From NCBI GenBank assembly GCA_022447065.1, contig JAKUUM010000003.1, positions 1 through 64,000 of the forward strand: a DNA stretch of 64,000 nucleotides, in the 5' to 3' direction. The stretch is from SAR86 cluster bacterium. GTDB taxonomy: Bacteria > Pseudomonadota > Gammaproteobacteria > Magnimaribacterales > Magnimaribacteraceae. Position 1 is the stretch's first letter. Each line of letters starts with the position of its first letter. The position numbers were made by a program, and so were the translations under genes. Below, piece by piece: positions 204 to 2,760 of this stretch. The notes below the pieces were generated by a model, which did no database searches, had not been told where the DNA came from, and saw nothing but the letters and a program-made list of their open reading frames with translations.

Positions 204-1355
204 TCATGATATAGCCACTTGTATGCTCTTTATAAGGTCTTCCTGTTCCTCAATGCCCACTGAAATACGGATCAGATTCTCAGAAATACCTGCTTTTTTC
301 TTATCCTCGGAACTTAATGGTGCGTGTGTCATCGTGTAGGGGTGACAAACTAAACTTTCAACACCACCCAAAGATTCTGCTAATGAAAAATATTCTATAC
401 GTTTAAAAAATTTCTTAACTTCCCGAAGTCCACCCTTAATTTCAAAGCTTAGCATTCCACCGAATCCCGATTGCTGTTTCTTTGCTATTGCATGGCTTGG
501 ATGACTTGAAAGACCAGGATAGTATACTTTCTCAACTGAAGGATGTTCCGAAAGGACCCGTGCCAGAGCATGAGCTGTCTTTTCATGTGCTTTCATTCTT
601 AGCTTTAATGTACGTAATCCCCTGAGTGTCATATAACTGTCAAATGGAGAGCCAGACAAACCGAGGGTATTTGCCCATTCTTGCATTGTTTGATGTAGAG
701 TTTCACTTTTAGCGACCACAATACCTCCCACAACATCACTATGACCATTGATATATTTTGTTGTTGAATGAATCACAATATCTGCACCTAACTTGAATGG
801 TGTTTGGAAGATAGGAGTTAAAAAAGTATTATCTACTACTAATAATGTGTTGCTTTGTTTCAGTATCTTAGATATATCCTGTATATCAACTACACGCAAT
901 AAAGGATTAGATGGGCTTTCTACCCAAACTATTTTGGGTTGATATTGTTTAATTGTTTGTTGAAACAAATTAATATCGCTTTGATCAATAAATTTGACTT
1001 GCAATAATCCCCGTTCTGCAAGTTGTGAAAACAGTCTAAAAGTACCTCCATAACAATCATGAGGAACAATCACGTAGTCATTGGGATTAAGCAATGAAGT
1101 GACAAGGGTTGTGGCTGCCATACCTGAGCTTGTAACCGTGGCTCCGAACCCGCCTTCGAGTACTGAAACTGCTTCTGCCAAGGCATCTCTGGTAGGATTT
1201 GCGGACCTGGTGTAATCATAACGTTGCTCCACTCCAATTTCTTTATAAGCAAATGTTGATGTTAAGTAGATTGGTGGGATTACTGCCCTGTATTGCTCAT
1301 CTGATTCCAAAGCAGTTCTGATAGCAATGGTATTCTTACTTATATTTAATTTCAT
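204..1355 (-). CDS. metB: Cystathionine gamma-synthase (Cys/Met PLP enzyme)
   Basis: 383 aa, a PLP enzyme of the trans-sulfuration family that condenses an activated homoserine with cysteine in methionine synthesis. The YDYTRSANPT motif is at about residues 46-55, the PLP-contacting Asp is at about 175 (VVDNTF), and the Schiff-base lysine is about K200 in HSTTKYINGH, close to the position in E. coli MetB (386 aa). The ATG at 1355 has a clear GGGAG ribosome site about 5 nt upstream. The leader carries a SAM-II riboswitch followed by a terminator, which fits a methionine gene repressed by SAM. A cystathionine beta-lyase or O-acetylhomoserine sulfhydrylase role cannot be fully excluded from sequence alone, but length and riboswitch favour MetB. 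Confidence 0.88.
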   Translation of the reverse strand: MKLNISKNTIAIRTALESDEQYRAVIPPIYLTSTFAYKEIGVEQRYDYTRSANPTRDALAEAVSVLEGGFGATVTSSGMAATTLVTSLLNPNDYVIVPHDCYGGTFRLFSQLAERGLLQVKFIDQSDINLFQQTIKQYQPKIVWVESPSNPLLRVVDIQDISKILKQSNTLLVVDNTFLTPIFQTPFKLGADIVIHSTTKYINGHSDVVGGIVVAKSETLHQTMQEWANTLGLSGSPFDSYMTLRGLRTLKLRMKAHEKTAHALARVLSEHPSVEKVYYPGLSSHPSHAIAKKQQSGFGGMLSFEIKGGLREVKKFFKRIEYFSLAESLGGVESLVCHPYTMTHAPLSSEDKKKAGISENLIRISVGIEEQEDLIKSIQVAIS

Positions 1356-1448
1356 TTTTAACTCCCTAAAAACATAACAAGAAGAGCCAGCTTTTAAAGA
1401 TCGGTTGTCTTTTTGGCAAGGGTTAAACTCTACTCATGATGTCATTAT

Positions 1449-1486
1449 TAAAAAAAAACCTGTCAGCTTTCGCTAAACAGGTTTTC
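1449..1486 (-). terminator. Intrinsic terminator between the SAM-II aptamer and metB
   Basis: On the minus strand a long stem (arms AACCTGTTTAGC and GCTGACAGGTT, loop GAAA) is followed by a run of about eight T. It starts about 12 nt after the aptamer and lies about 95 nt before the metB start, so it is placed to act as a transcription attenuator rather than an end-of-gene terminator. Its 5' arm contains UUUAGC, which could pair with the GCUAAA of the aptamer 3' strand and form a competing structure. Confidence 0.8.
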
Positions 1487-1496
1487 TAATAGAAGT

Positions 1497-1547
1497 TCCT
1501 TTTAGCTGTATTTATAAAGCACCCGCAAGCTAGATACAAATCGGTGC
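1497..1547 (-). ncRNA. SAM-II riboswitch aptamer upstream of metB
   Basis: The RNA starts GCACC-GAUUU and has a 5-bp P1 (GCACC/GGUGC), a 19-nt loop ending in CUUGCG, then UAUAAAUACAGCUAAAAGGA. Both the order and the conserved blocks (GAUUU, UUGC, AUAAAU.NAGCUAAAA.GG) match the known marine metagenome SAM-II aptamer from memory: same 19-nt loop and nearly the same total length (51 versus 52 nt). It begins only a few nt after the predicted transcription start. SAM binding is expected to turn off the downstream metB. Identification is by pattern; no covariance search was run. Confidence 0.88.
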
Positions 1548-1554
1548 TAAGAGG

Positions 1555-1583
1555 ATTATAGTTTCATAAAAAGTTATATACAA
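1555..1583 (-). promoter_or_regulatory. Sigma70-like promoter of the metB leader
   Basis: A perfect TATAAT (-10, 1555-1560) and TTGTAT (-35, 1578-1583) are separated by 17 bp on the minus strand. Transcription would start at about 1548, immediately before the SAM-II aptamer. The block ATGAAACTATAAT is identical in the second leader at about 2468-2480. Confidence 0.75.
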
Positions 1584-1693: not shown

Positions 1694-2353
1694 TTAAGAG
1701 GGATCTTTCACTATCCTTAAATAAGGCTTTGGAGCTTCCCATCCTTCTGGAAATCTTTTTTTAGCTTCTTCGTCATTTACAGCAGGAACAATTATGACGT
1801 CGTCTCCCTTATTCCAATTTACTGGTGTCGCAACTTGGTGTTTTACAGTCAATTGGCATGAATCCAACAGCCTTAATACTTCATCAAAGTTTCTGCCTGT
1901 ACTCATTGGATAGGTAATGATTCCTTTTATTCTTTTATCCGGTCCTATCAGGAATACAGATCTAACAGTCGCATTGTCAACGGCAGTCCTGCCTTCTGAA
2001 GTATCGCTATCATCAGCTGCCAACATGTCAAAAGCTTTCGCAACTTCCAGCTTTGGATCGCCGATTAAAGGATAAGTTACTTTATGCCCTTGTGTTTCCT
2101 CTATGTCTTTAATCCATTCAAGATGGTCTTCAACAGGATCCACACTTATCCCAATTATTTTACAGTTTCTTTTATCAAACTCTCCAGTTAAACCAGCTAC
2201 GTATCCAAGTTCAGTTGTACAAACCGGAGTAAAATCTTTCGGATGTGAAAACAGGATAGCCCAGCTTTCTCCAATCCAATCTCTCAAGGCAAAAGAGCCT
2301 TGGGTAGTTTCAACCACTAAGTTTGGTATTTCAGAATTAATTCTAATTGACAT
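1694..2353 (-). CDS. 1-Cys peroxiredoxin (Prx6 type)
   Basis: 219 aa thiol peroxidase that reduces peroxides in the cytoplasm. The PVCTTE motif places the peroxidatic cysteine at C45, and the C-terminal PVNWNKGDDVIIVP segment is typical of the Prx6/1-Cys group; there is no obvious resolving CXXC. The ATG at 2353 is chosen because GGAG lies directly upstream at good spacing; a longer reading from a TTG at 2365 would run through the terminator and ribosome site. The gene stands alone and is preceded by its own promoter, SAM-II aptamer and terminator hairpin that ends right at the ribosome site. That regulation is unusual for a peroxiredoxin. Confidence 0.9.
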   Translation of the reverse strand: MSIRINSEIPNLVVETTQGSFALRDWIGESWAILFSHPKDFTPVCTTELGYVAGLTGEFDKRNCKIIGISVDPVEDHLEWIKDIEETQGHKVTYPLIGDPKLEVAKAFDMLAADDSDTSEGRTAVDNATVRSVFLIGPDKRIKGIITYPMSTGRNFDEVLRLLDSCQLTVKHQVATPVNWNKGDDVIIVPAVNDEEAKKRFPEGWEAPKPYLRIVKDPS

Positions 2354-2363
2354 AATTTTCTCC

Positions 2364-2399
2364 AAAAAAAAACCCGCCAGCTTTTGCTTAACAGGTTTT
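2364..2399 (-). terminator. Intrinsic terminator abutting the peroxiredoxin ribosome site
   Basis: Minus-strand hairpin with arms AACCUGUUAAGC and GCUGGCGGGUU, loop AAAA, followed by nine T and then GGAGAAAATT-ATG. The terminator is therefore the last element before the ribosome binding site. The 5' arm UUAAGC is complementary to GCUUAA just after P1 of the aptamer, a possible antiterminator pairing. Confidence 0.8.
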
Positions 2400-2408
2400 A
2401 ATATTACT

Positions 2409-2460
2409 TCCTATTTAGCCGCATTTATTAAGCACCCGCAAGTTGGATACAAATCGGTGC
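2409..2460 (-). ncRNA. SAM-II riboswitch aptamer upstream of the peroxiredoxin
   Basis: 52 nt. P1 is GCACC/GGUGC, the loop GAUUUGUAUCCAACUUGCG is 19 nt, and the 3' strand AAUAAAUGCGGCUAAAUAGGA keeps the SAM-II conserved blocks. It shares the loop start, P1 and 3' strand with the metB aptamer but differs at scattered positions (for example AUACAGC versus AUGCGGC), so it is not a recent identical copy. The predicted transcription start is at the first aptamer base. Its target gene, a peroxiredoxin, is not a methionine or SAM pathway gene. Confidence 0.85.
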
Positions 2461-2467
2461 ATTTGGC

Positions 2468-2495
2468 ATTATAGTTTCATCTTAAATATACACAA
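2468..2495 (-). promoter_or_regulatory. Sigma70-like promoter of the peroxiredoxin leader
   Basis: TATAAT at 2468-2473 and TTGTGT at 2490-2495 with a 16-bp spacer on the minus strand. The arrangement is the same as in the metB leader, so promoter, aptamer and terminator seem to have been copied as one unit. Confidence 0.7.
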
Positions 2496-2684: not shown

Positions 2685-2760
2685 TGGAGCGGGAAACCGG
2701 GTTCGAACCGGCGACCTATACCTTGGCAAGGTATCGCTCTACCAACTGAGCTATTCCCGC
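2685..2760 (-). tRNA. tRNA-Gly (GCC)
   Basis: 76 nt with encoded CCA. The acceptor stem GCGGGAA/TTCCCGC, anticodon loop TTGCCAA (anticodon GCC) and T loop TTCGAAC are all intact. A decayed 76-nt copy lies at 17543-17618. The 5' side faces the fragment of a Rieske oxygenase gene at 2836. Confidence 0.95.

Follow-up and report, generated by a model that had tools for sequence, protein, structure and literature searches.

The locus described here raises the question of whether a peroxiredoxin gene of a SAR86 cluster bacterium is controlled by a SAM-II riboswitch and, if so, what role such control would serve. It was studied within a 64,000 nt stretch of DNA (contig JAKUUM010000003.1, positions 1 to 64,000; hereafter the window) from a species-level metagenome-assembled genome (MAG) of 1.55 Mb, 93% complete and in 50 contigs, whose 16S matches that of E. 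coli at 79% over 838 bases. The first-pass annotation had assigned a promoter, a SAM-II element and a terminator ending at the ribosome site to the leader of a 1-Cys peroxiredoxin gene (Prx), and all of these parts were recovered, in the following arrangement.

2468..2495, minus strand: Prx leader promoter, from sequence (-35-like TTGTGT 2495-2490; -10 TATAAT 2473-2468)
2406..2465, minus strand: SAM-II aptamer before Prx (66.7 bits with the clade model R1, described below; 26.9 bits with Rfam RF00521)
2460-2456/2436-2432, minus strand: P1 of the Prx aptamer
2446-2445/2411-2410, minus strand: pseudoknot P2a of the Prx aptamer
2439-2438/2419-2418, minus strand: P2b of the Prx aptamer
2419-2414, minus strand: core GCUAAA of the Prx aptamer
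2386..2419, minus strand: predicted antiterminator, formed between GCUAAAUAGG (2419-2410, in the aptamer) and CCUGUUAAGC (2395-2386, the terminator's 5' arm)
2364..2399, minus strand: Prx intrinsic terminator (bulged hairpin 2399-2369; nine-T run 2372-2364; kept in relatives)
2363-2360, minus strand: Prx Shine-Dalgarno sequence GGAG, adjoining the terminator end (ATG at 2353)
1694..2353, minus strand: 1-Cys peroxiredoxin (Prx6 type), 219 aa, Pfam AhpC-TSA and 1-cysPrx_C, with Cys45

The -10 hexamer of the promoter is perfect and the -35 weak (3/6), with a spacer of 16 nt; its score fell under the cut-off of a generic promoter scan, which did not list it, and a comparable -35/-10 pair stands at the same offset in the leaders of relatives and of metB. 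Transcription would start at about 2461. The terminator has an MFE of -13.3 kcal/mol (z -2.97), and the Prx ATG lies 53 nt beyond the end of the aptamer on the same strand, placing the element in the 5' leader. The predicted peroxidatic Cys45 sits in FTPVCTTE, Cys64 and Cys166 are also present, and the closest solved chains are 6p0w, 7kuu and Prx6 1prx. A near-perfect palindrome, TTTACCTGGGGTACCCACACAGGTAAA, was also seen at about 2559-2588, between a tRNA gene (2688-2760, minus strand) and the Prx promoter; it may be a terminator or a protein site.

Assignment to the SAM-II class could not be made with Rfam alone, since at the gathering threshold the window returned only tRNAs, and a clade model was therefore required. 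The Rfam SAM_alpha model (RF00521) scored the Prx element at 26.9 bits, under its gathering score of 36 bits (E 7e-4 on 801 bases; 3.1e-4 over the 1.55 Mb genome), and matched in 47 of the 61 nearest genomes, mostly likewise under threshold. We extracted 74 elements together with their downstream genes and built the model R1 from an alignment of 40 distinct type-A sequences, none of them from the window genome, the elements having been seeded by RF00521. Searched genome-wide, R1 gave 66.7 bits for the Prx element (E 2e-14 over 1.55 Mb), 67.0 bits for an element before metB (E 1.7e-14) and 73.6 bits for one before metX, with the best non-SAM-II match at just 19.1 bits, so that the window genome holds three SAM-II elements. 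The Rfam check suggested in the first-pass annotation thus fell short of the gathering score, whilst the class itself was borne out by the independent clade model. The Prx element retains every one of the 16 invariant columns and of the nine pairs of P1 and the pseudoknot; the metB element keeps the invariant columns with P2a displaced by one base. Within the 40 distinct sequences P1 and P2a covary through two-sided pair changes, 96.9% of their cells being paired vs 27.9-48.2% with the partners slid; P2b is invariant, and the number of further pair types in the alignment showed no excess over shuffles. An extra loop base (GUAUCC) is common to the Prx and metB elements and has a same-length counterpart in the OmpW leader of one relative. 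No Rfam match to SAM-V was found in the window leaders at E values up to 10. The Prx element resembles RF00521 in its P1, H-type pseudoknot and core (GAUUUG / UUGC / AUAAAU / GCUAAA), and differs from RF00521 members in its target and in belonging to a sequence subtype of the order's own, sub-gathering in Rfam and strong on the clade model.

How the leader would switch can be read from its pairing alternatives. The two strands GCUAAAUAGG and CCUGUUAAGC pair at nine of 10 positions in the Prx leader (eight of the nine scored), the exception being one A-A mismatch that most relatives lack; the pairing arm is present in 40 of 50 type-A elements, 31 of which are paired at all nine scored positions. 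In constrained folding the terminator forms when the pseudoknot strand is out of reach, and GCUAAAUAGG pairs with CCUGUUAAGC when the 3' arm of the terminator is not yet made. Terminator and antiterminator have one 10 nt arm in common, and the expression platform is thus coupled to the pseudoknot strand. This shared arm, conserved in 40/50 elements, leads to the predicted logic that transcription is off at high SAM. At high SAM the nascent leader would fold P1 and the pseudoknot and hold GCUAAAUAGG inside the aptamer, leaving the terminator arm CCUGUUAAGC free to form the hairpin and stop transcription before the Prx start codon; at low SAM GCUAAAUAGG would pair with CCUGUUAAGC, the terminator would be blocked, and Prx would be made at the same time as MetB and MetX, the same switch being present in the leaders of both. 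The metabolic logic given earlier, SAM bound for gene off and SAM absent for gene on, is therefore also what the conserved pairing predicts, and we infer both SAM binding and termination by the Prx leader. A terminator-type platform has been predicted for the SAM-II riboswitch of S. meliloti metZ (PMC9373788), and that of the Prx leader is of the same type.

The second SAM-II element of the window lies 913 nt downstream of the Prx element, before metB and with a promoter and terminator of its own, and was missed in the first-pass annotation. Prx and metB are accordingly two tandemly arranged SAM-II transcription units, the second of which comprises the following features.

1555..1583, minus strand: metB leader promoter, from sequence (TTGTAT 1583-1578; TATAAT 1560-1555)
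1493..1552, minus strand: SAM-II aptamer before metB (R1 67.0 bits; Rfam 30.9 bits, match 1481-1557)
1450..1485, minus strand: metB SAM-II terminator (MFE -16.8 kcal/mol, z -6.01)
1341..1447, minus strand: SAM-I/IV-like stretch, probably decayed, between the metB SAM-II terminator and metB (19.1 bits vs a gathering score of 41.1)
204..1355, minus strand: metB, of the cystathionine gamma-synthase / O-succinylhomoserine (thiol)-lyase type (TIGR02080 553.5 bits, cut-off 504.6)

The SAM-I/IV-like stretch occupies the same place as the intact SAM-I/IV of the tandem OmpW leaders of relatives, in which SAM-II is followed by a full SAM-I/IV scoring 51.6-69.2 bits, above threshold (L122 824-1023, and the equivalent place in L125, L118, L117 and L116); this is a rarely listed tandem order. 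Seven tandem SAM-II / SAM-I/IV riboswitches have been listed (PMC9481103). The OmpW leaders of the relatives are like these, as is the metB leader, where a degenerate SAM-I/IV-like stretch comes after SAM-II; unlike them, the second aptamer in the window is probably decayed, and in the Prx leader SAM-II stands alone. Contig C1 carries the third SAM-II element of the genome, in front of a metX-like gene for an acyltransferase.

Across the order SAM-II elements precede mainly metX, metY, metB and homocysteine methyltransferase genes, and further targets are OmpW, TonB receptors, a fatty acid desaturase-like protein and carbonic anhydrase. Leaders of the same kind stand before metX and metB in the window genome and before metX, metY or metB in relatives. 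We also observed a type-B SAM-II-like subtype, UCGUGAUUUGAUCCUAUUGC...GCUAAAACGGAA, without the terminator arm of type A, before genes for TonB-dependent receptors (L017, L026, L119, L145, L152 and L155), desaturase-like proteins (L027, L028 and L130), carbonic anhydrase (L264) and homocysteine methyltransferases; identity with SAM-V was rejected, 12 type-B loci giving no Rfam match at the gathering score. At one further locus (L160; G009:C16:38805-38876) SAM-II precedes the gene for a 301-aa protein that is ATP-grasp-like by eye and has no Pfam match at 1e-6, and the metY leader of that genome is almost identical to its own, another case of recent cassette re-use.

In contrast to these leaders the Prx gene itself is rare. 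It occurs in one of the 61 nearest genomes, that of the window, three congeners being without it, and in two of 203 genomes of the order; the second copy, in G106 (L264), is 62% identical and has no SAM-II in front. Conservation of the element before the same gene, proposed earlier as a check, could not be found in close relatives because they lack Prx, and as a SAM-II target Prx is private to one species, represented by a single species-level MAG. The 80 nearest named homologues had no SAM-II within the fetched flanks, none of their loci had metB adjacent to Prx, and no Prx was found in viral contigs. The Prx leader is 85% identical at the DNA level to the metX leader of a congener and groups with the metX leaders of the genus in a leader tree (SH support 0.937); the metB leader is 87% identical to a congener's metY leader, and metB clusters with the SAM-II-preceded metB genes of seven relatives (support 100). 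Neither Prx nor metB differs from its flanking genes in GC or GC3. Leader kinship, the metB clade and the distribution of Prx together indicate that the leaders belong to the lineage itself and the Prx gene was probably acquired. A rare Prx, probably gained by horizontal transfer, would thereby have come to lie behind a leader kin to the metX leader of the genus and so have been placed in the methionine regulon.

The other Prx of the order has a different setting (L264 463-5307, G106:C59). A divergent HxlR-type regulator lies beside it, and the gene is followed by cysE, which overlaps the longest Prx ORF, and then by a cysteine synthase gene (cysK); beyond cysK the opposite strand carries a broken copy of OmpW and a carbonic anhydrase gene with a type-B SAM-II-like element in front. 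The HxlR family has redox-sensing members. The window genome encodes no HxlR protein, and with the G106 protein as query none was found beside the named Prx genes. In two of the 80 named loci (L080, 54%; L115, 30%) Prx is directly followed by a cysK-like gene, and in most of the 80 no sulfur genes are adjacent.

On this evidence the 1-Cys peroxiredoxin gene is very probably controlled by a true SAM-II riboswitch, one that acts by terminating transcription. That the element is related to the aptamer but binds a different ligand (SAH, for instance), and so is no SAM switch, would accord with the Rfam score below the gathering threshold, but the same element family stands before metX, metY and metB across the order and the invariant core agrees with the Rfam SAM-II consensus, making this reading highly improbable. 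We consider it scarcely less improbable that the Prx-metB contig end comes from another organism through an assembly or binning error. The locus does lie at a contig edge, the contig starting about 200 bases past metB, in a MAG whose congeners are without Prx; however, the two leaders resemble those of metX and metY in congeners, as given above, neighbouring genes are 79-81% identical to those of congeners, base composition is that of the flanking genes, and metB falls within the order's own SAM-II metB clade.

As to the physiological role, we infer that Prx most likely supplies peroxidase under sulfur or methionine shortage. A fall in methionine or SAM would signal that sulfur is limiting or that methionine synthesis has been damaged by oxidation, and at such times thiol reserves would be low and a peroxidase worth making. 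The main rival is that Prx landed behind a copied methionine leader supplying mainly a promoter and Shine-Dalgarno sequence, SAM control, though real, being incidental to physiology and the arrangement maybe short-lived; this is conceivable, if somewhat unlikely. The confinement of the SAM-II-Prx arrangement to one of 203 genomes would fit it, as would the rarity and probable acquisition of the gene and the repeated re-use of the leader type in the order (metX, metY, metB, OmpW and TonB receptors), whilst the invariant columns and alternative pairing have remained intact despite many other differences from the metB leader, a terminator would be wasteful for a merely constitutive promoter, SAR11 also has a peroxidase within a SAM regulon, and in the order's other Prx-bearing genome cysE-cysK lie next to Prx. 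The tie of Prx to cysteine and methionine genes at two loci of the order, a small sample, favours function. Prx might also serve sulfur amino acid synthesis directly, shielding peroxide-sensitive methionine and cysteine enzymes or handling oxidised sulfur intermediates, in which case co-regulation with metB would be a pathway grouping with no stress sensing. This we entertain only tentatively: it agrees with the cysE and cysteine synthase genes that follow Prx in G106, the cysK-like genes behind Prx in two of 80 named loci and the adjacency of Prx and metB under the same switch, but most named loci have no sulfur genes next to Prx, and we know of no biochemical link between Prx and sulfur amino acid synthesis. 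Hydrogen peroxide from methanethiol oxidase is an unlikely source of substrate, the genome being without SBP56.

Peroxidase supply under SAM control has a described counterpart, which the first-pass annotation, knowing of no such case, had overlooked: in 'Ca. Pelagibacter ubique' the peroxidase gene osmC lies downstream of a SAM riboswitch and was the gene most strongly induced under sulfur limitation (PMC5069961). Both are peroxidase genes of streamlined marine bacteria and belong to a SAM-riboswitch regulon, and we count it as a further likeness to the Prx locus that the sulfur-limitation-induced osmC of SAR11 lies in a variable genome region (PMC5069961). They differ in that osmC encodes an OsmC family protein under a SAM-V riboswitch acting on translation, whereas Prx is of the Prx6 type and has a dedicated leader of its own with a SAM-II riboswitch and predicted transcription termination. 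Another structured RNA, the PBC-28-3 motif, is found upstream of AhpC-type peroxiredoxin genes (PMC8632094); it likewise precedes a peroxiredoxin gene, but it is built of a long stem and a loop rich in pyrimidines, is not an aptamer of known ligand and is structurally unrelated to the Prx SAM-II element.

Both the riboswitch class and the platform are thus known, and the target gene is new, in one genome only. With it a peroxide-defence gene joins the targets of a switch otherwise mostly tied to methionine synthesis, whose leaders are re-used as ready-made regulatory cassettes, and the intact terminator and antiterminator make the switch assayable in the tube. One possible but doubtful generalization is that streamlined genomes have, on at least two independent occasions (osmC in SAR11 and a Prx6-type gene here), put SAM riboswitches in the place of redox regulators, with a drop in SAM reporting that sulfur is limiting or that methionine synthesis has suffered oxidative damage, and turning on a peroxidase. 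Together with osmC of SAR11, Prx would be the second, unrelated peroxidase under SAM control, here predicted, in a small-genome lineage, and the role of SAM level as a stress signal thereby becomes testable.
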